Shown here piece by piece: positions 3,418 to 27,758 of a stretch of DNA of 40,554 nt (the stretch's first letter is position 1; the number at the start of each line of letters is the position of its first letter). The position numbers and the translations under genes were made by a program. The notes under the pieces were generated by a model that saw only the letters and a program-made list of their open reading frames with translations, was not told where the DNA came from and did no database searches. Origin of the DNA: Deltaproteobacteria bacterium (GTDB lineage: Bacteria; Desulfobacterota; Desulfarculia; JACQYL01); assembly GCA_016208165.1 (NCBI GenBank), contig JACQYL010000086.1, positions 1 through 40,554 on the forward strand. The letters are read 5' to 3'.

Positions 3418-3872
3418 TAGACGCCGGACCTCCACCGGACAGAACCGTCTGCGCCGGCGGATTTCGGCTTGAGGCCGCCGGTTTCAGGCTTCAGCCCCTG
3501 ATGACGGAACCGTAGTGGATACCTATTCCGGTCACTTCATCGATCCGGTAGGGGACGTCATTTCTATTCCTGAACTCCATCCCGTTCTTTTCGATCAACC
3601 CGAGAACTCGTATCCGATGTCTTGTTTCCCTCCACGGCTCCCGGCGTTTATCCGCCGCATCGGAGAAGGCGAAACACCTCTTTTCGTCCGCCGATTCGGA
3701 CACGGGGATATCTCATGTCCGATTTTCGGCAATCCCTTGATCGGCGTCCGTGCGCGCAACGGCCAATGGGGAAAGTTTCCCCATTGGCCGTTTCATTCCG
3801 GTTCGACCTTCATACCGTTGACATCCTATCCCGCCTGGGATAGCATTCAACCATTTGGAGGAACAACGCCTT
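3418..3872. other. Non-coding stretch between the zinc-ribbon gene and the acetyltransferase pair
   Basis: No gene is supported. Open frames on both strands lack ribosome sites and family features. The main content is the 17-bp perfect inverted repeat at 3758-3792, listed separately. A GGAGG at 3857-3861 belongs to the next gene. Confidence 0.4.
3758..3792 (+). terminator. 17-bp perfect inverted repeat, probable terminator
   Basis: Bases 3758-3774 and 3776-3792 are exact reverse complements around a single central G, giving a 35-base near-palindrome that would fold as a very stable hairpin. The downstream bases are only modestly T-rich (GTTTCATT). It sits between the zinc-ribbon gene and the acetyltransferase pair, so it most likely terminates the former. 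A DNA-level role such as protein binding is possible. Confidence 0.55.
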
Positions 3873-4433
3873 ATGCAACTTCGATATCCAAAAGAGCTTG
3901 TGCTGAAGGATGGTACGGACGCGATCCTGAAACCCCTCGAGGCAGGGGACGGGGATGCATTGCTCCGCTTCTACTCACAGATTCCACTCGAGGACCGGTG
4001 GTTCATGAAAGAAGACGGTGCGGATCCCGTTGTGATTCGGAAATGGGTCATGGACCTGGATATCGAACGGGTATTCTCCATTCTGGCCTGGGTGAACAGC
4101 CGGGTCGTAGCCCACGCGACTTTGGTGCGCCACGTCTTCGGAGGTCTGAAGCACGTTGGCCATTTACGAATTATGGTGGCTCCCGAAGTGCGGAGAAAAC
4201 GGCTCGGCACCTGGATGTTGTTGGATTTGATCCGAAGGGCCATGGATGCAGGCATCGAACGGCTTCGATCCGATTTTGTCGTGGGCTTGGAGGACTCTGC
4301 CATTGACGCGGCCTACAAACTGGATTTCACGAAGGAGTGCGTCTTGAGAAATTTTGTTCAGGATCAGGACGGCCGTTATCACGACTACCAGATCATGGTG
4401 AAGCATCTCCACACCGAATGGAGTGACTTTTAG
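3873..4433 (+). CDS. GNAT-family N-acetyltransferase
   Basis: 186-residue single-domain GNAT protein. Seen: a core strand HLRIMVAPEVRRKRLGT around 97-113, which is motif A with the R-x-x-R/K-x-x-G acetyl-CoA pyrophosphate-binding turn, then a helix LLDLIRRAMDAG. Family knowledge: such enzymes move the acetyl group of acetyl-CoA to an amine, often a protein lysine or a small molecule. The start is taken as the ATG at 3873, eleven bases after GGAGG; an in-frame TTG at 3855 would place that site inside the gene. It ends 11 bases before an AcuA-like acetyltransferase, so the two are co-expressed. Inference: the pair may tune acetyl-CoA synthetase or other acyl-CoA enzymes by lysine acetylation. 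The acceptor is unknown. Confidence 0.8.
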   Translation: MQLRYPKELVLKDGTDAILKPLEAGDGDALLRFYSQIPLEDRWFMKEDGADPVVIRKWVMDLDIERVFSILAWVNSRVVAHATLVRHVFGGLKHVGHLRIMVAPEVRRKRLGTWMLLDLIRRAMDAGIERLRSDFVVGLEDSAIDAAYKLDFTKECVLRNFVQDQDGRYHDYQIMVKHLHTEWSDF

Positions 4434-4444
4434 AACCTTTTCTT

Positions 4445-5086
4445 ATGCCGGAGTTCCCCTCGAAGAGCGCCGTTTGGAACGTTCCGCAGGGACAGCTGAT
4501 CGTTCGGTCCTTTTGCGGATCCGAAGAAATAGCGGCCCTGCGCTTTCCCGATAGTTTCAAGAAATTCGCAAGCTACCAACCCATCATCTCGAGCCTGAAA
4601 AGGCTCGTCGGAGCCGCCGCCAAACCCGGCGCCAACGTGGTCATCGTGCACGAGCCCGGAAACGATATCGTTGGCGTGGGCGTCATGGAGCCCCCTCCGT
4701 CCGGGGAACGCTGGCATCGCGTCGGAGACGATGTGATGCTGGAAGTGTCGGTCATCGAGGTGAGTCGGGAATGGCGATCCGGCGGCGTTGCAAGGAAACT
4801 TCTTTCTCTCCTGATGGATCATCCCAACATCGAAGATCGCATTGTTTACATGGTGGGTTATTCCTGGACCTGGGATCTGGATGGCGTTGGCAAAACCGCC
4901 ATGGAATACCGCAACATACTCATGAACCTGTTCGCCCGGTTTCAGTTCAAACCTTATCCCACCAACGAACCCAATGTATGCCTCCGACCTGAAAACCTCT
5001 TCATGGCCCGTATTGGAGCGCGCGTTTCCCCGGAAGTTCAACGGAAGTTCAAATGGGTCCGCTTTAACCTGGATTTGCATACCTGA
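4445..5086 (+). CDS. acuA: AcuA-like protein acetyltransferase (acetyl-CoA synthetase regulator family)
   Basis: 213-residue GNAT protein that aligns along its length with what I recall of Bacillus AcuA (about 210 residues). Seen: an acetyl-CoA-binding stretch EVSREWRSGGVARKLL (105-120), the aromatic block YSWTWDLDG (139-147; AcuA has YYWHWDLKG), EYRNILMNLF, and NLFMARIG near 184-191 (AcuA NCLMARIG). Family knowledge: AcuA acetylates the catalytic lysine of acetyl-CoA synthetase and so switches it off. No ribosome site is obvious at the ATG; the 11-base gap to the preceding GNAT gene suggests translational coupling. The usual partners acuB, acuC and acsA are absent nearby. Inference: in this anaerobe it controls acetate or acyl activation. 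Confidence 0.75.
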   Translation: MPEFPSKSAVWNVPQGQLIVRSFCGSEEIAALRFPDSFKKFASYQPIISSLKRLVGAAAKPGANVVIVHEPGNDIVGVGVMEPPPSGERWHRVGDDVMLEVSVIEVSREWRSGGVARKLLSLLMDHPNIEDRIVYMVGYSWTWDLDGVGKTAMEYRNILMNLFARFQFKPYPTNEPNVCLRPENLFMARIGARVSPEVQRKFKWVRFNLDLHT

Positions 5087-5210
5087 CGGCAGGGCGGTTC
5101 CAGACTCTGCAATGCGCCCTGACACCGAAATCGAGATAGGAAGCGCACTCAGACCCCGCACAGCGGAAAATGGTCCCATTGTCACCCTGCGATGACGCCG
5201 AGTTTGGACC

Positions 5211-7698: not shown

Positions 7699-7886
7699 AA
7701 TCTGCACTATTCTATACGCGTGAATCCACGCTCCGTCAAGTCCTGAACGCCGTATGTTTTCCCGGAGCTTCAACCTGAACGCTTTCCCTGTTGAATGCGC
7801 CGACAATCGGAGGTATGGTCGTAGAGAGTGGCGGAAAATTCGAGCCGGCGGGCACGCGCCGCACCCAAAAGGAACGAAAAGATCGT

Positions 7887-8828
7887 ATGAAGCGTAAGGT
7901 CATTGATTTCATCGTTTGCCCGGCCTGCCTCCCAAACGAGATTCGTCTCGATTGCGGTGCGGTGGATGAAACCGATGGAGACATAGAAACGGGCGCATTG
8001 ACGTGCCCGGCCTGTGGCGCGTCATATCCCATCATCCAAGGGGTAGCCCATCTGGTGTCCTCGAAGTCGCCCACGGTAAGATCGAATTCCTCGAAATACG
8101 AGAATCCGGAGGTGCTCTCCTCTTACCTGTGGAGTCACTTTTCGGACCTCCTGGGTGACGCCGATGCGCACACCGCTTACGGGGATTGGTCATCTCTCGT
8201 TGCGCCCGATTCGGGGACAGCCCTTGATACGGGTTGCGCAACCGGCCGATTCACCTTCGAACTCAGCCGAAAATGCGAGTTCGCGGTGGGAGTGGACTAC
8301 TCGACGACCTTTGTCCGCTCGGCAAGAGCCCTGATGAAGAACAGGGCGGGCGAGTTCGATCTGATCGAAGAGGGGCTCATCCGACGTCAACGCGGATTCC
8401 TTCTCCCGGAAACATGGGATTCCAACAAAGTCGAGTTCTTGGTAGCCGACGCTCAAGCCCTTCCCTTCAAATCAAATCGCTTTTCCATCGTTACCTCCCT
8501 GAATCTGGTGGACAAACTCTCGAGGCCCCTGGCCCATCTGAAAGAAATCAATCGCGTTGCAGGAATTACGCAATCTCAGTTTCTGTTTTCAGACCCCTTT
8601 TCCTGGTCGCAGGATATCGCTGAAACGAAAGAGTGGCTCGGAGGACTCACCGAGGGCCCCTTCGCCGGATTCGGCATAGACAACATCTCCAACCTGGTGG
8701 AAGGTGGGCGGAAGATGCTGTTGCCTGCTTGGAATGTCGAAGGACGAGGGACCGTTTGGTGGAAAATCCGTAATCACCGAAACCACTTTGAACTGATTCG
8801 AAGTTGCTTTCTCAAGGCAACCCGCTGA
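7887..8828 (+). CDS. SAM-dependent methyltransferase with N-terminal zinc ribbon
   Basis: 313-residue protein. Seen: an N-terminal Trm112/YbaR-like zinc ribbon with C11-x2-C14 and C40-x2-C43 (CPACGASYPI), then a class I methyltransferase domain with motif I ALDTGCATGRF (112-122), acidic GVDYS (135-139), and VADAQALPFKSNRFS as motifs II-III. Family knowledge: this layout occurs in methyltransferases of unknown substrate near lipid, quinone or natural-product genes. ATG 7887 is chosen because it precedes the ribbon and has GGAA upstream; a longer frame from 7791 lacks a good ribosome site. The next gene starts two bases after the stop, so it is co-translated with the dipeptidase. The substrate is unknown. 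Confidence 0.78.
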   Translation: MKRKVIDFIVCPACLPNEIRLDCGAVDETDGDIETGALTCPACGASYPIIQGVAHLVSSKSPTVRSNSSKYENPEVLSSYLWSHFSDLLGDADAHTAYGDWSSLVAPDSGTALDTGCATGRFTFELSRKCEFAVGVDYSTTFVRSARALMKNRAGEFDLIEEGLIRRQRGFLLPETWDSNKVEFLVADAQALPFKSNRFSIVTSLNLVDKLSRPLAHLKEINRVAGITQSQFLFSDPFSWSQDIAETKEWLGGLTEGPFAGFGIDNISNLVEGGRKMLLPAWNVEGRGTVWWKIRNHRNHFELIRSCFLKATR

Positions 8829-8829
8829 A

Positions 8830-9783
8830 TTGAACGAATTGAACCGATCCATACCGTGCGTAGACGGCCACGTTGACCTCGTGTATGATCTTATGCGACG
8901 ATACCCGAGGACTCCGTTCCCGGATTGCGGGGACGGACACGTCACCCTGGACAAGTTGCAGGCGGCTCGGGTGGTCGCGTTTGTGACCGCCCTTTACTGT
9001 CCGGACATCCACAACGGGCCCGGGATCGCGAAGGCGTATCTCGAGGATCTGTTCCATTATGCGCGTACCTATCTCAATGGAGTGCAACGGATCCGCACCC
9101 GGAAGGATTTAGAGAACTCCTACTCGGGCGACGGTCCACCGGGGACGTTCTTTCTTTTGGAAAACGCCGACGCTCTGGTGGATTTCAGCATCGAGACATT
9201 GGCGGGGAACGGCGTCAAGGCGGTGGGTCTGACACATGCGGGATCAAACCGGCTCGGAGACGGCAACGCGGTTGCCGCACCCCGGGGTCTGAAGCCCGCG
9301 GGTAAGAGATTGCTGGAGGAACTGGGACGCAAAGGGTTTGCCCTGGATGTGGCTCATTTGTCCGAGCCGTGCTTCCTCGAGGCCGTGGACCTTTTCGAAG
9401 GACCGCTGTTATCCTCCCACACGGGGTTCCGTTTTTTCTGTGACTCGCCCCGGAACCTGACGGCGCAACAGACAAAGATCCTCCTCGAACGCGATGGAAT
9501 GATCGGCATGAGCATAAATCCGGAAATGCTATCCAGGGACGCCCGGGCCGGAATCGAGGACGTTATCCGCCAAGTGGACTGGTTCGTCCAGCGCCACGGC
9601 GCGAGTCATCTGGGAATCGGAACGGATTTCGGAGGCTTTGACGTAATCAACCTGGGTCTCGAGGACATATCGAAGATTCCGGTTGTTGCAGAGCGGCTCT
9701 TCGGATTAGGCTACTCTCCGGACGCGGTGCGGGACATCATGGGCGTCAACTGGGTTCGTTTCTACTCCCGCCTTTTCGATTGA
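8830..9783 (+). CDS. Membrane-dipeptidase (M19) family metallopeptidase
   Basis: 317-residue renal-dipeptidase-like enzyme hydrolysing dipeptides, often with a D-residue, through two zinc ions in a TIM barrel. Seen: the ligand set H14 and D16 (VDGHVD), bridging E111 (ENAD), H176 (DVAHLS), H197 (SSHTGFR) and D266 (GIGTDFGGFD), all in family positions. No signal peptide is present, so it is probably cytoplasmic. The start is a TTG at 8830, one base after the stop of the methyltransferase gene; no ATG is available near the conserved VDGHVD. The tight spacing makes a two-gene operon. The family length (300-400) is satisfied. Confidence 0.92.
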   Translation: MNELNRSIPCVDGHVDLVYDLMRRYPRTPFPDCGDGHVTLDKLQAARVVAFVTALYCPDIHNGPGIAKAYLEDLFHYARTYLNGVQRIRTRKDLENSYSGDGPPGTFFLLENADALVDFSIETLAGNGVKAVGLTHAGSNRLGDGNAVAAPRGLKPAGKRLLEELGRKGFALDVAHLSEPCFLEAVDLFEGPLLSSHTGFRFFCDSPRNLTAQQTKILLERDGMIGMSINPEMLSRDARAGIEDVIRQVDWFVQRHGASHLGIGTDFGGFDVINLGLEDISKIPVVAERLFGLGYSPDAVRDIMGVNWVRFYSRLFD

Positions 9784-10786: not shown

Positions 10787-11698
10787 TCATTGTTTTTTAC
10801 TGTTGACGCTCTTGACGGATGTTGGAGATGGGCCGGAATGGGCGGCGCGGGGGACCAGTTCGATCTCGAATAGCTCCGGCCAGAGCTTTCCCGTGACGTA
10901 GATTCTGCCTCCGTCAGGGTCATAGGCAATACCGTTGAGAACGTCCGCGCGGCGTTCGCCGCGAATCTCCCGTCTGAGACCGGACAGGTCCACCCAGCCG
11001 ACAACAAGCCCACCTTCGGGTGAGATTATTGCAATCCAATCGCTTCCCCAAACGTTGGCGAACAACTCGCTCTCAACGGTTTCCAATTCGTTCAGGAGAT
11101 CGACCGGCGCATTACCGTCCCGCACCCGCACTCGACGCACGACGGTGAACGTGGATGGATCGAGAAATCGAAGCTCTGAAGACCCATTGCTCATGATAAG
11201 GAACGATCCCCACTTAGTGATGCCCCATCCTTCACCTTCATATTTGAACTCACCCAGCACGTTCAGATCATTTCTGTCATACATCAGGGCCCTCCCTGCC
11301 CTCCAGGTGAGTTGGATCAGAACGTTGCTCCACTCCGTGAGCCCTTCCCCGAACAACGTAGGGTCGAGCCGGACCGAAGCAACCACCTCGCCCGTTTGCA
11401 GCCGCACTTTGCGCACGGTCGAGGCGCCCCACAGACCCGTACTCTCATAGAGGTAACCGTCCGCAATCATAAGCCCTTGGGTGAACGCTTCGGGATCATG
11501 AGGATACCTGTTCACGATTCGATATCCGTACAGAGGTATCGTACCCTTCTCATCGGAACGGGTGACGGATGGAGTAGAGGGATTGTCGATCCGGCCGGAG
11601 GAATAGGCCCCGGAAGGCGGTTCCCCATAGAGGCTGCCGCTCGAAAGAAGGATGCCGAGAACAGCCGCCGGCAGCAGCGACGTCAGTCGCTTCGGCAA
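10787..11698 (-). CDS. Secreted glutaminyl-peptide cyclotransferase (plant/bacterial beta-propeller type)
   Basis: 303-residue enzyme that cyclises N-terminal Gln to pyroglutamate on exported peptides. Seen: a signal peptide over residues 1-25 ending SLYG, then family landmarks FTQGL, ESTGLWGAS, LFGEGLTEW, GEGWGIT, MSNGSS, LNELE, ANVW, LNGIAYDP and VTGKLWP, in the order of the Glu_cyclase_2 family. The start is a TTG at 11698 with AAAGGAG eight bases before it. The gene lies downstream of the CHAP-repeat peptide gene on the same strand but is separated by a terminator and 270 bases. The repeat peptide contains no Gln, so a direct functional link is not supported. Confidence 0.9.
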   Translation of the reverse strand: MPKRLTSLLPAAVLGILLSSGSLYGEPPSGAYSSGRIDNPSTPSVTRSDEKGTIPLYGYRIVNRYPHDPEAFTQGLMIADGYLYESTGLWGASTVRKVRLQTGEVVASVRLDPTLFGEGLTEWSNVLIQLTWRAGRALMYDRNDLNVLGEFKYEGEGWGITKWGSFLIMSNGSSELRFLDPSTFTVVRRVRVRDGNAPVDLLNELETVESELFANVWGSDWIAIISPEGGLVVGWVDLSGLRREIRGERRADVLNGIAYDPDGGRIYVTGKLWPELFEIELVPRAAHSGPSPTSVKSVNSKKQ

Positions 11699-11917
11699 GT
11701 GGAGGCTCCTTTCCAGGACAGTCTCCCGTTAGAACGGAGACATTCCCGGTAAGATGGACTTGGCTTTAGTCGCACGAATGTACCGCGCAATGAAAACGCA
11801 CAGTTGAATACCAAAGCCGAATGCATTTGAAGGCTGCGGTCCCTCAAGAAATCGGAAACACTCGTGCGAGCACCTTGTACGGAACGGGGTATACGTGTCC
11901 TCCGGCATAAGAAAATA

Positions 11918-11943
11918 CCGGGAGATCTAGAAAGATCACCCGG
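11918..11943 (-). terminator. Terminator of the RiPP cassette
   Basis: On the minus strand CCGGG-T-GATC, a 6-base loop, and GATC-T-CCCGG form a stem with one mismatch, followed by a T-rich run (TATTTTCTTAT). It starts 28 bases after the precursor stop, the expected place to end the glycohydrolase, radical SAM and precursor transcript. Confidence 0.75.
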
Positions 11944-11971: not shown

Positions 11972-12127
11972 TCAGGCCGGGCCGTGGCAGGCAGGAGCAT
12001 GACACGCGGGAGCATGACAAGCCGGAGCGTGGCACGCCGGAGCATGACACGACGGGGCGTGACACGACGGAGCGTGGCAGCCGGCCGCATAGGAAGCCTT
12101 GCTTTCCACTTTCTTCATCTTCAGCAT
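11972..12127 (-). CDS. Candidate RiPP precursor: 51 residues with seven C-H-A-P-x repeats
   Basis: Not previously obvious because it is short and lies opposite a longer chance frame. Seen: ATG at 12127 with AAAGGAGGTGA ending four bases before it, 20 bases after the stop of the radical SAM gene. The product is a 16-residue basic leader (MLKMKKVESKASYAAG) and then seven tandem pentapeptides, CHAPS twice, CHAPA four times and CHGPA once, ending with TGA. Codons for the same residues vary (TGC/TGT, CAC/CAT, GCT/GCC, CCG/CCC/CCT), so the repeats are kept at protein level rather than by recent DNA copying. Family knowledge: Cys-rich repeat cores beside radical SAM enzymes with recognition domains are typical RiPP substrates. 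Inference: the seven Cys-His pairs are modified or bind metal. The final product is unknown. Confidence 0.85.
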   Translation of the reverse strand: MLKMKKVESKASYAAGCHAPSCHAPSCHAPACHAPACHAPACHAPACHGPA

Positions 12128-12147
12128 AGGTTCACCTCCTTTCGCAG

Positions 12148-14178
12148 CTAGTATTCCGACGGTTCAGGCCGGAGCAAACTCATGCTCCCCAAGGCCTGAA
12201 CAGCATCAACGCATTCACCGAAGAACTCCTTCGGACTCATCGCATTCCCATAGCGCGGATACAACTGCTCCGCGATGTGAGTAAGACTTTCTTCTCCACT
12301 GCACAGATTCAGAAAGTCTCTGCCGAAATCGTTGATTTCCGTCACTTCGAGCCGCTCGTCTTTCTGCTGAAAGACCAGAAGCGTGCGTTCCAAAGGGTAT
12401 TGTTCAAAAAACTTTGAGGACCTCATGTCCCGGACGATTTCAGGAACCGGGTAGTCAAAGGTTTCCAGCAGGAATGCCTTTGAGCGCAACGGTTTAAATT
12501 CCCGTATCCGGTGCTGGTCTATGTGAAAGTTCGTTTCTACGGATTTGAGTTTCCCCACTTCCAGCCCGCAGGTTTCGTACCTGAGTACGTCCGAGAGATG
12601 GTTCCGAAAAGCATGTGGGCCCGATATCCGAAGATGTCCGACAAACGAGGAAAACCGCTCGTAACAGTCTCGAGCACTGCACGTGAGTTTTCCCTGCGGC
12701 GATTTCGCTCCGAGCCAGGCCAACCATTCGAGGAAAACATCAGACGGGGATTTGCCGATGTCAAGGGTCAGTAGAAAAAAAGTCTTCGGATACAGATTCA
12801 CCATTAATGGGAAGTACTCCGTAATCAAAGCCAATTCGCTCAGACTTCGCCCCATGTTCGGAACATTGTAGAATGCGCTGTAGATCTCCCGGTCGGAATT
12901 GATCAGATCGTCATCGGATTCCAGTCGTCGGCCATCGTCAAATTCCAGGCCTAGAGCAAAATAGGTGTCCACTTCCCGCACCAAACGGTCGAGGTATGTA
13001 CGGTGAAGATCCGTTCCCGGAAGTACGGTAGGCATCTGAAGAAGCGTGTTCACATTTCCCAGGATGCCGGTCCTCAGAGCCAGATTCAAGGTGTCGTCGA
13101 CATCTTCCTCGCGCTCTTCGGGAAATCCGATCACATAGCTGAGGGTGGGAACGATTCCCCGGTCCGTGGTCTCGAGGACGCGTTGATACAAGATGCCCTC
13201 ATCAATGTTCTTTCGAATAAAGGCGAGGGTGCGTTTGGATCCGGAATCGATGCCGTAACACATGGATTCGCATCCCGCTTCACGCATCAACTCGAGCAAT
13301 TCCGCGTCCACACTGTCGAGCCTGGAGATGCAGTACCAGGGCAGATTATTCAACTTTTCCCGAATCATCGCCCGGCAAAAGTCCGTTACGAACGCCCTTG
13401 AAGCGGTAAACTGGTCATACGCCAGCAAGAAACACTCGGCGCCGAATTCCCTATGGAGGTATCCCATCTCCTGAATGAGGCGTTCCACGGAAAAGCGTCG
13501 CGTCTGCCTGCGCCACATGACGGACTCGGAGCAATAGACACAACGGTGGGGGCATCCCCGCCCGACCTCGAGGATGGCAATACTCCTCGGGAGTTCGCAG
13601 GCATCTCTGTATACGGAAAAGGACGGGAGACGATCATATCGAGGAAGAGGCAGCTCGTTCAGATCGGCGATTAACGGCCGATCTTCGGTGCGTAGAATCT
13701 CGCTGCCGTCCCGGAACGTAACCCCGGCCACGTCCTTTCTTCCTTTTTGCTCCTCGATGGCGGATATCCATTCCGGAAAGGTGACTTCTCCCTCCCCGCG
13801 TATGACCGAATCGATCCAAGGGTAACGTTCGAGCGTCTGAACATCGATGAAGGAGGCCGTATGTCCGCCCACGACAATATGAATCCGCTTATTCCTCGAC
13901 TTGATACGCCGGGCAATTTGAATCACGGCAGGATAGGTGGTGCTTTGCGCCGAGAATCCTACGACGTCGGGATCGTCATTCAGGATCATGGATGCGCATC
14001 GGTCATAGATCTCTTTTCCCATACGAAGTTCGCCCACGCGTAGCTGTAGGACAAAGTCCGTCACATGCACCTTGTGTCGAGTCTCGTTCACCGAGGTAGC
14101 GAGGTTTATCAGCCCCAGCGGCGGTAGATTGTACAAGGACTCGAGATAAAAGGGAGGGAAAGCGAGCGAAATATTCAT
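12148..14178 (-). CDS. B12-binding-type radical SAM peptide maturase with C-terminal PqqD-like recognition domain
   Basis: 676-residue enzyme. Seen: an N-terminal Rossmann-like cobalamin-binding-type domain (about 1-140, including VVGFSAQST, IVVGGHTASF and VIRGEGEVTF); a radical SAM core with GRGCPHRCVYCSES, cluster cysteines C209, C213 and C216; a GYGIDSGS-like SAM segment near 308-315; and GFPEE near 351. The C-terminus (about 600-670) has the EINDFGRDFLNLCSGEES pattern followed by helices, as in PqqD-like RiPP recognition elements. No D-x-H-x2-G base-off motif is present, as in many relatives. ATG 14178 is chosen for its GAGGTG site; a longer frame to 14247 would overlap the upstream gene. 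The precursor gene follows at 20 bases. The reaction (methylation, cross-link or other) cannot be deduced. Confidence 0.85.
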   Translation of the reverse strand: MNISLAFPPFYLESLYNLPPLGLINLATSVNETRHKVHVTDFVLQLRVGELRMGKEIYDRCASMILNDDPDVVGFSAQSTTYPAVIQIARRIKSRNKRIHIVVGGHTASFIDVQTLERYPWIDSVIRGEGEVTFPEWISAIEEQKGRKDVAGVTFRDGSEILRTEDRPLIADLNELPLPRYDRLPSFSVYRDACELPRSIAILEVGRGCPHRCVYCSESVMWRRQTRRFSVERLIQEMGYLHREFGAECFLLAYDQFTASRAFVTDFCRAMIREKLNNLPWYCISRLDSVDAELLELMREAGCESMCYGIDSGSKRTLAFIRKNIDEGILYQRVLETTDRGIVPTLSYVIGFPEEREEDVDDTLNLALRTGILGNVNTLLQMPTVLPGTDLHRTYLDRLVREVDTYFALGLEFDDGRRLESDDDLINSDREIYSAFYNVPNMGRSLSELALITEYFPLMVNLYPKTFFLLTLDIGKSPSDVFLEWLAWLGAKSPQGKLTCSARDCYERFSSFVGHLRISGPHAFRNHLSDVLRYETCGLEVGKLKSVETNFHIDQHRIREFKPLRSKAFLLETFDYPVPEIVRDMRSSKFFEQYPLERTLLVFQQKDERLEVTEINDFGRDFLNLCSGEESLTHIAEQLYPRYGNAMSPKEFFGECVDAVQALGSMSLLRPEPSEY

Positions 14179-14212: not shown

Positions 14213-15115
14213 CTAAACCTCATCCAGGAGGGATTCGATTTTCGCACCCTCTACAAGACCGCTGATCCATTCTTCGGGTATGCCTTCCGCTCCGAGCCAG
14301 GCGCCCAATACCATACCCTCGATCATGCCGCGGGCGGCGGAATCGCCTCCAGCCATCACGTTTTCGATCAGAGCATCCTTGAGATTACTTTCATACTTAG
14401 CGATCAGGTGGATAACGCTCGGGAAAGCTTGAGCCGTGTGGCAGCTCTGTCCGAAACGGCCGATTGCCGGCGCGCTTTCCCGGTTGACGGAGCCAAGTCC
14501 ATCTGAAACCCATTCCGCGATCGGGGCATCCTTGAAAGGCTCGCCGGCGACCTCCCGAATGACCGACACCGGGGAACCGCCATCGAGCACCTTCCGGACC
14601 ACCCTGGCAAAGAACTCCGCGCTGTCGATTACAAGGGGATTATTGTGCGTCATTCTGGTCTGAGCTCGGGCGGACTCGACGAGTCCCTCCGGATCGCTTC
14701 TCAAAGCATATACCAGTGGAGCTATGCGTCCCGCTCCTGCAAGATCGGTGGAAGAAGAGCCCGACGTCGCGGGGCCTGCCCCGGAATCGAAATTCATCAT
14801 GGTTGCTTTTGTAGCCTTGTCCAAATACCCATTGTACTCTCTGAAAAGCGCACGCCAACGTTCGGAAAAATCGGAAAGATCAAATCGCTTCCGTGCAGCC
14901 AAGGACTCGAGAAGCACCATCGTTTGATCGCCGTAATGAGTAAAGGCGCCCCGCCGTTTCGTGGCATGGTAGGAATTCGGAACCGCATCAAGCAATCCTT
15001 CGATACGACCGAATTCGGCTTCAATCATCTGGGTGTCATAAATCCAATGCGCACCCAGGGCCAGCGAGTCGCCTGCGAACGAAGCTATCACCATAGCCTT
15101 TGCTTTATCTTGCAT
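14213..15115 (-). CDS. ADP-ribosylglycohydrolase family protein
   Basis: 300-residue all-helical enzyme of the DraG/ARH family, which removes ADP-ribose from proteins or small molecules with two Mg ions. Seen: ASFAGDSLALGAHWIYD at the N-terminus, GDQT (62-65) in place of the more common T/S-D-D-T, and AGGDSAARG near 253-262 in place of GGDTDTNA, so the metal site is kept with variant residues. HTAQAFPSVIHL is also typical. ATG 15115 has GAGGGCGGA upstream. It is the first gene of the minus-strand cassette, 34 bases ahead of the radical SAM gene. Inference: it may be a regulatory or immunity partner of the RiPP cassette, or simply co-transcribed. Confidence 0.8.
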   Translation of the reverse strand: MQDKAKAMVIASFAGDSLALGAHWIYDTQMIEAEFGRIEGLLDAVPNSYHATKRRGAFTHYGDQTMVLLESLAARKRFDLSDFSERWRALFREYNGYLDKATKATMMNFDSGAGPATSGSSSTDLAGAGRIAPLVYALRSDPEGLVESARAQTRMTHNNPLVIDSAEFFARVVRKVLDGGSPVSVIREVAGEPFKDAPIAEWVSDGLGSVNRESAPAIGRFGQSCHTAQAFPSVIHLIAKYESNLKDALIENVMAGGDSAARGMIEGMVLGAWLGAEGIPEEWISGLVEGAKIESLLDEV

Positions 15116-26369: not shown

Positions 26370-26570
26370 CATTTCCCGCAGTGGAACAGACTTGCCACTT
26401 TTATTGAAGTAATCCACGATTGTTTCTCGCCCATTCCTGAAAGGGCGCCTCTGTACCTTCCTGCAACATTGTCAATGAAAGCGAAGCCTTTGCTATTTGT
26501 TTGACACCTCACCGCAAATGCTGATAACGAACCATTCCGATATATACTGATGTACTTTGAAAGGATTACG

Positions 26571-27758
26571 ATGTATCTGGCGTCTTTTGTGCATCGGGAT
26601 GAGTTGTTTGACATCGTCGAGAGGTGCCTCTGCGACCGGCTTGAGGTGGACGATTTCTTGAAATTTACTCAGATCCTCATCTGTGACGGATTTGTCCTGG
26701 GCGAAAGCTTGAAGAGCGCGGGCGAACTTCTGATCGGGATGACGCACGGCGCATCGTTCATTGAAAAGCGGATCTACACCAAGGGGGAACTGCGGGACGT
26801 CATCTGCGGTTGCAGCAACAATGCGGACGCACGAGTTGAAGAACTCACAAGATGGTACAAAAGCGACCCCGACTTCTTCTACCGCGAGACCCCCATCAAC
26901 GGAACCATCTGCTTCGATGCAGAGAACCGGCTGCTGGGCATTTATCGGATTAAACGTCCAAGGAGGATTGCGGAGAAAGCGAACCGATACATCGCCAACT
27001 GGATCTTGGGAAGAGTCCTCGAACTGGCCGCAGGCATGGCCGACCAGAGAGCGAAATCTCACGGCCTTCGACTCGAACAGCTCATCACGCCGCATGATCA
27101 GATGGAAGAGGAATTCATTTCCGCGGAGAAGACCGTCGCGCACGCCTTCAGGGACGGGACCATGAAGCTGGAGAAGGCGGCCATGAGCATTCGGGACGTT
27201 GGAGGCATCAAGATTGTAGGAGGACCGGAATGTCTCGAGCGGTTGGAATCACGGCTCGCCGATGTCCCGAGCTTCAGAATCGTGGAAAAGGAGTACTTTG
27301 AAGGAGATTACCGCGCCGTCAGCCTGATCCTCGAATTCCAATGGGACCGGGAACATGTTTGCCGGCGGTACATGGAATCCGAAGGATGGGCGAGATACCT
27401 GAATCGCGGGATTCCGGACAGCGAGTTGAAAAAGGGGCTGGAGCCCTTTTTAGCAGGCGCGGCGGACACTGTTTTCATCGAGGTGATCCTCGCCGCGTTT
27501 CCGGATGTGGTTGAGTCCGAATTCGGAAAAAGCATTCATGAGGAACGCATCATTCGACAACGGCACAACAATACCTACAAAGGCTATATTCCCATCAACG
27601 TGGAGTTTCTTGTGGAGTATCTGTTTGCCGTTGGTTTCAGTCCGCAAACCCGAATCGAGCGCCTGCCCATAAAGCTCTGGGGAAGGTATCTGCCCGATAC
27701 GTTAATCTACGAGATTCGCGAACTCTATCATATTCCCGAGTTTGACGTCATTTACTAA
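26571..27758 (+). CDS. Conserved protein with a weak RelA/SpoT-like nucleotidyltransferase segment
   Basis: 395-residue soluble protein without signal peptide or membrane helix. I do not recognise the family with confidence. Seen: an N-terminal helical region, LIGMTHGASFIEKRIY, a middle basic stretch IKRPRRIAEKANRYI, and near 205-260 a segment D-VGGIKIV ... KEYFEGDYRAVSLILEF. This last recalls the D-I-A-G-I-R ... Y-K-x2-G-Y-R core of (p)ppGpp synthetase folds but lacks several catalytic positions. ATG 26571 is chosen for GAAAGGA upstream; an ATG at 26550 has no site. It stands alone. The similarity could be chance; a structure search would settle it. Confidence 0.6.
   Translation: MYLASFVHRDELFDIVERCLCDRLEVDDFLKFTQILICDGFVLGESLKSAGELLIGMTHGASFIEKRIYTKGELRDVICGCSNNADARVEELTRWYKSDPDFFYRETPINGTICFDAENRLLGIYRIKRPRRIAEKANRYIANWILGRVLELAAGMADQRAKSHGLRLEQLITPHDQMEEEFISAEKTVAHAFRDGTMKLEKAAMSIRDVGGIKIVGGPECLERLESRLADVPSFRIVEKEYFEGDYRAVSLILEFQWDREHVCRRYMESEGWARYLNRGIPDSELKKGLEPFLAGAADTVFIEVILAAFPDVVESEFGKSIHEERIIRQRHNNTYKGYIPINVEFLVEYLFAVGFSPQTRIERLPIKLWGRYLPDTLIYEIRELYHIPEFDVIY

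Follow-up and report, generated by a model that had tools for sequence, protein, structure and literature searches.

What use has a bacterium for a 51-residue peptide that ends in seven copies of nearly the same five residues? The question is raised by a small minus-strand gene (12127 to 11972) of the window, by which we mean the whole 40,554-nt stretch of deltaproteobacterial DNA analyzed here. The original prediction was of a modified or metal-binding peptide natural product. We lean, with a little more confidence than doubt, toward a different fate for the peptide: in anaerobes, the gene would supply a RiPP pathway with an expendable precursor, the product being a metabolite of the thiohistidine/ovothiol type. 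A modified RiPP precursor is thereby retained from the prediction; the peptide is probably not the end product.

The repeat peptide and its relatives

The translated peptide consists of the leader MLKMKKVESKASYAAG, followed by two CHAPS units, four CHAPA units and a final CHGPA (position 3 is thus Ala in six copies and Gly in one), and then TGA. The plus-strand reading of the same interval is unrelated to it. The 51-residue frame, its Shine-Dalgarno sequence, the 16-residue leader, the seven units and the 28-base distance to a terminator had all been described before, and the sequence confirms them: the terminator-like stem starts at 11943, 28 nt past the stop, with a T run behind it. Most homologues are also preceded by a GGAGGTGA-type Shine-Dalgarno sequence. 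When the seven 15-nt units are compared, all five third codon positions are variable, as against one of the five first and one of the five second positions. Since variation is so concentrated at third positions, the repeat is maintained at the protein level, and the earlier claim of selection on the protein stands. The CHAP pattern occurs only once in the 5.7 Mb genome, where a reversed control pattern has no match.

Table 1. Features of the CHAP system. Positions are those of the window, unless a locus (L number) of another genome is given.
Feature	Position	Strand	Basis or remark
Precursor gene, 51 aa, stop TGA at 11974-11972	11972..12127	-	Translation; 44 homologues including the window's
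Leader, 16 residues	12080..12127	-	16 residues in 34/44 loci, Glu8 in 44/44
Core, seven C-H-[A/G]-P-[A/S] units	11975..12079	-	Translation, codon-position count
Shine-Dalgarno AGGAGG, 12140-12135, 7 nt 5' of ATG	12135..12140	-	Sequence
Intrinsic-terminator-like hairpin and T run	11912..11943	-	Read from sequence
Cobalamin-type radical SAM maturase: B12-binding fold, CxxxCxxC radical SAM domain	12148..14178	-	Pfam PF02310, PF04055
C-terminal DUF2063-like + RRE peptide-binding module of maturase	12151..12855	-	Profiles, AlphaFold, fold search
Trm112-like domain and OvoM-like SAM methyltransferase (ORF open from 7791)	7887..8828	+	TIGR04345, PDB matches
M19 (renal dipeptidase/GliJ-type) dipeptidase	8830..9783	+	PF01244, PDB M19 matches
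CHAP gene directly after double-cubane-cluster reductase and ATPase	L070 851-2927, L097 864-2942, L105 4488-6570, L108 3278-5356		
Selenocysteine peptide	L148 2349-2548		After maturase, SECIS-like hairpin
Selenocysteine peptide	L149 1298-1497		After maturase, SECIS-like hairpin
Selenocysteine peptide	L119 4652-4851		After maturase, SECIS-like hairpin
Selenocysteine peptide	L121 6474-6673		After maturase, SECIS-like hairpin
Selenocysteine peptide	L122 6525-6724		After maturase, SECIS-like hairpin
Selenocysteine peptide	L123 4083-4282		After maturase, SECIS-like hairpin
Selenocysteine peptide	L124 6606-6805		After maturase, SECIS-like hairpin

Relatives were sought in about 85,000 species, each represented by a single genome, by scanning for CH[A/G]Px units that occur three in a row. 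The scan returned 68 stretches, of which 39 carry the same leader as the window's peptide, and leader and gene context are both conserved in these 39 further loci. They are nearly all deltaproteobacterial (a few are labelled otherwise or unlabelled), the bearers being MAGs of Geobacteraceae, Desulfuromonas, Desulfobacterales, Desulfovibrionales, Syntrophobacteraceae and unplaced "Deltaproteobacteria". As the loci come mostly from MAGs, absences of genes are weak evidence throughout. Four more loci and the window bring the set to 44, a few of them from one species group. It contains 284 units, in runs of three to nine per peptide. The His and Pro never vary, three units having been demanded by the search itself; position 3 follows the order A>G>S, and position 5 A>S>T>V. 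The leader consensus is ML-K-[IV]-K-K-[VI]-E-K-K-x-S-[SY]-A-x.

About 29 of the 68 stretches, which have no leader and resemble GC-rich repeat frames (from Actinobacteria, Proteobacteria and others), were discarded. So were 12 viral contigs that match [CHxPx]3, mostly in short or minisatellite-like frames, with the leader in no translated frame. Two contigs of the viral collection (L031 11415-11849 and L040 1244-1507) have long leaderless five-residue repeats of the CHAPT/CHAPI/CQTP kind, the opposite strand of which encodes VGAWQ-type repeats.

NCBIfam has no family that the peptides match above its cut-off. The earlier remark that no familiar named family has such a unit needs amendment, since a "Cys-every-fifth" RiPP family, CefA (NF038108), exists and shares the Cys at each fifth residue; the remark holds in that the window's peptide, whose best match this is, falls short of membership, at 17 bits where 30 are required. 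CefA membership was rejected on scores of 17.2, 16.2, 12.1 and 10.2 bits, and it fails on the invariant His and Pro as well. Membership in the CXXX-repeat RiPPs was also rejected: the period is five, not four, and TIGR04119, which we take to be the maturase family of those RiPPs, is absent from the best 25 of the 33 matches of the radical SAM protein. The CHAP peptides apparently constitute a widespread, undescribed RiPP family with its own radical SAM enzyme. A search of the open-access literature found no text with the repeat sequences; a prior report in subscription journals is possible.

The radical SAM maturase

A B12-type radical SAM gene had been expected beside the peptide, and the expectation is borne out: at 31 of the 39 pattern-found loci, the maturase gene is directly upstream on the same strand. 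The 31 enzymes have 43-60% identity, save one contig-edge fragment (tail only, 30%). The window's ORF is open to 14247, the conserved start being the ATG at 14178 by a 24-way alignment and profile match. Each of the 18 genomes tested has a single ortholog that scores over 840 bits, with the next best match at 222, even where the peptide is located elsewhere. In a test that did not depend on the peptide, the maturase profile alone was run against 395 genomes of the window's phylum. It matched in 13, and every one of the 13 maturases directly precedes a CHAP peptide gene (11) or a TGA-HAP version of it (2; see below). A lack of homologous peptides beside related maturases had been named in advance as the finding that would speak against the prediction; such peptides were found in 31 of 39 and 13 of 13 cases. 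Plasmid searches (tblastn) with the maturase gave only paralogs of 28-35%.

With 39 leader-sharing relatives and this regular adjacency, the RiPP reading gains support. A conserved leader and core, and a cognate enzyme with a leader-binding domain, mark the peptide as a likely RiPP precursor whose core is predicted to be modified, and on sequence grounds precursor and maturase are almost certainly a genuine pair. The domain in question is the C-terminal tail of the maturase. Its profile matches (HvfC/ApyI) are weak; its AlphaFold model has a pLDDT of 94 (the models of the maturase have 90 and 94), with NGO1945, TglI and lasso-peptide RRE proteins as top folds. An architecture of DUF2063-like and RRE domains is the partner type described for MNIO enzymes (PMC12452194); none of the window genes scanned encodes an MNIO enzyme as a partner.

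What would the enzyme do to the core? Cobalamin radical SAM enzymes mostly methylate, which counts against the ovothiol reading. It is conceivable, though unlikely, that His, Pro or Cys of each unit is C-methylated, the intact methylated peptide serving as a metal binder or redox peptide. Fold relatives of the maturase are the cobalamin radical SAM enzymes TsrM, TokK, OxsB, CysS and AprD4, the best match being the methylase TsrM, and Cys-His pairs are natural metal ligands. The closest named radical SAM family, ApyD (NF050148), is likewise a RiPP maturase and, as the nearest relative to have been characterized, counts against ovothiol too, since it beta-methylates Tyr (PMC10635010). The maturase is not a member of that family (272.5 bits, cut-off 750), and the two differ in that ApyD has a separate partner, ApyI, whereas the CHAP maturase has the binding module fused. 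C-methylation leaves unexplained the exchange of Cys for a single costly selenocysteine in some relatives, and also three further genes: those for the OvoM-like methyltransferase, the M19 dipeptidase and a PLP lyase-like enzyme. It is these genes that point elsewhere.

Neighboring enzymes and the likely product

In most loci with enough sequence, the gene order is maturase, peptide, methyltransferase, dipeptidase. The window is an exception, with the last two on the opposite strand about 2 kb off (7791-9783), and this counts against the ovothiol reading. The idea of an ovothiol came from the Cys-His pair, the peptidase and the methyltransferase, before the family of the methyltransferase was searched. 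The search gave TIGR04345 (ovoA_Cterm, "putative 4-mercaptohistidine N1-methyltransferase") at 92 bits, the next full-domain relative scoring 28; that 92 lies below the cut-off of 170 also counts against ovothiol. Among solved structures in the PDB, the 5-thiohistidine and 5-selenohistidine N-methyltransferases OvoM (1e-18) and OvsM (2e-17), together with OvoA (1e-15), are far ahead of generic methyltransferases (2e-6).

Across 19 genomes TIGR04345 exceeds its cut-off in four and is sub-threshold in 13. Four Geobacteraceae-type genomes (G070, G071, G072 and G080) do without the window-type enzyme and have OvoM instead, at 307-326 bits (cut-off 170). Two incomplete MAGs (G063, G074), in which the methyltransferase was not found, count against the ovothiol reading. 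In the phylum sample, the methyltransferase is present in 13 of 13 genomes with the maturase vs. 32 of 382 others (Fisher p = 1e-13, relatedness of genomes ignored). OvoA forms the bond between Cys sulfur and His using O2. An OvoA-type sulfoxide synthase exceeds the TIGR04344 cut-off in none of the 19 genomes; a likely counterpart of the last enzyme of ovothiol synthesis is thus present without the oxygen-dependent first.

The presence of the methyltransferase in 32 genomes without a maturase means that it is not exclusive to the CHAP pathway. Most contexts read in those genomes adjoin a molybdopterin oxidoreductase. In L181, L183-L191, L196 and others (e.g., L188 3932-6946), where the maturase is absent, this oxidoreductase resembles formate dehydrogenase or thiosulfate reductase. 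The pairing is possibly a second anaerobic route to thiohistidine, or it has a different role.

The M19 dipeptidase is conserved beside the cluster in relatives, and GliJ is among its PDB M19 matches. In gliotoxin synthesis, the thiols are freed by GliJ, an M19 enzyme, and then by the PLP C-S lyase GliI. The next gene in several CHAP loci is convergent and encodes an enzyme of PLP class V (cysteine desulfurase, C-DES or EgtE-like). Its orthologs are found in 15 of 27 maturase genomes and are absent from the window's genome and 11 others, where another lyase would therefore be needed. Together, the methyltransferase, the dipeptidase and the PLP lyase-like gene argue for a small thiol freed from the peptide rather than for a peptide product.

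Other neighbors were set aside. A DraG-like ADP-ribosylglycohydrolase (14213-15115), whose gene directly precedes that of the maturase on the same strand, is not conserved beside relatives (a single 24% match in one locus), nor is the glutaminyl cyclase (10787-11698) beside the peptide. The window also has frames of 240-400 aa with no Pfam match at 26550-27758, 4430-5185, 3515-4306, 55-870 and 934-1662.

In the scheme that we prefer, the DUF2063-like and RRE tail of the maturase would hold the leader, and the radical SAM domain would attach, in each unit, the imidazole of the His through its carbon to the sulfur of the Cys before it. The bond between Cys and His would then be cleaved by peptidases together with the M19 dipeptidase. 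A lyase of the PLP C-S type (like OvoB or EgtE, or like GliI after GliJ) would strip the carbon skeleton of the Cys, and the methyltransferase would N-methylate the ring to give ovothiol A. With three to nine units, each peptide would furnish several product molecules. The histidine-derived thiol would most likely be 5-thiohistidine or ovothiol A.

The same bond could be formed to another end. If a Cys-His thioether or other crosslink were the final state, the crosslinked peptide would be a ranthipeptide-like RiPP and the neighbors would serve otherwise. The invariant, adjacent Cys and His, the tandem units familiar from other multi-site radical SAM RiPPs, and a Cys/Sec exchange well suited to chalcogen-carbon bonding are all in keeping with this. 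We regard it as improbable, because a conserved dipeptidase and an amino-acid-type methyltransferase favor breakdown to single residues, and neither an exporter nor a leader peptidase was recognized in the clusters read. A more distant alternative, which we consider most improbable, is that the peptide, with little or no modification, stores or chaperones metal, perhaps for ATP-dependent double-cubane reductases: it does lie directly 3' of such a reductase and its activase in four Syntrophobacteraceae-type loci, and a BadF/DUF2229-type protein is near the maturase in Geobacteraceae (L048, L104, L107), but the genomes of the double-cubane loci nonetheless contain the maturase, and the invariant leader and RRE tail favor enzymatic processing.

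The ovothiol-type route that we favor would resemble the known ovothiol pathway (the N-terminal sulfoxide synthase of OvoA, the PLP lyase OvoB, and the methyltransferase OvoM or C-terminal domain of OvoA) in its Cys and His substrates, probably in its methyltransferase family, and perhaps in a PLP C-S lyase, a lyase-like gene being often in the cluster. It would differ in making the C-S bond by radical SAM chemistry on a ribosomal peptide, with no OvoA, no oxygen, and a requirement for peptidase. The pearlin pathway to 3-thiaglutamate (TglA, TglHI) also uses a ribosomal peptide to scaffold a small sulfur amino acid, and TglI provides the second-best fold match for the maturase tail; TglHI, however, is an MNIO iron oxygenase that acts on an added C-terminal Cys, whereas in the CHAP peptides the units are internal and numerous and the enzyme is of the radical SAM type. 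If our reading is true, it would explain how strict anaerobes synthesize ovothiol-type thiols without oxygen-dependent OvoA, and would provide a new mode of C-S (and C-Se) bond formation on histidine. The partner genes suggest that bacteria living without oxygen build ovothiol-like antioxidants on the peptide, selenium-bearing in some lineages. The reading leads to predictions about masses and enzyme activities that can be put to the test in organisms whose genomes are nearly complete.

A version with selenocysteine

In seven relatives, the gene directly after the maturase has an in-frame TGA at the Cys position of a unit (UHAP peptides). Five are in Syntrophobacteraceae-type genomes, which additionally encode a CHAP peptide elsewhere, and two are in other genomes. 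An example is MLKVKEVENKVLYTDVCHESSDQASACHVPT-TGA-HAPTESPVRR, where CHVPT and [TGA]HAPT are in the five-residue register, which places the TGA exactly at the Cys. A SECIS-like hairpin (AATCTCC-loop-GGAGAT) begins 14 nt past the TGA in all seven, and the codons between the two differ synonymously at His, Ala and Pro. A separate T-rich terminator is found 3' of the hairpin. Every one of the seven genomes has tRNA-Sec (73-77 bits); SelB is over its cut-off in four of the five genomes tested, with fragments in the fifth. Rfam gave no match in L122 6450-6800; its coverage of bacterial SECIS elements is poor. With an in-frame UGA, a downstream hairpin, coding past the UGA and Sec machinery, the UHAP variant, as distinct from the window's peptide, has the expected marks of a selenoprotein and would be read as one.

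Exchange of Cys for Sec is the usual sign of a functional chalcogen. Judged from the genes, the exchange here shows that the chalcogen itself would be what matters. The selenium of Sec would be joined to the His ring, and UHAP peptides would yield the selenium analogue, ovoselenol. The methyltransferase of the CHAP cluster resembles OvsM of the known ovoselenol pathway (OvsA/OvsM), and both routes would put selenium on histidine. The known pathway takes its selenium from a selenosugar, whereas that of UHAP would derive from coded selenocysteine, which would in this way join RiPP chemistry.

We stop just short of leaning toward the fuller claim, an oxygen-independent ribosomal route to ovothiol by cobalamin radical SAM transfer of sulfur from Cys to His, with a selenocysteine-coded version for ovoselenol. 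Held jointly with that claim, and as tentatively, is the view that the UHAP peptide is the first RiPP precursor whose modification site is a genetically encoded selenocysteine. Neither a ribosomal route to ovothiol nor a selenocysteine RiPP was found in the open-access literature; subscription journals may hold an earlier report.

Two minor observations may be added. The Sec/Cys-His active-site motif of formate dehydrogenase alpha subunits resembles [C/U]-H-[A/G]-P-[S/T], which may be chance. Beside the maturase of one genome, G066 (L120, ~3892-4091), the hairpin and the ESPVRR end are kept and the Sec unit is lost, apparently a remnant of a selenopeptide gene; a CHAP peptide is encoded elsewhere in this genome (L080).
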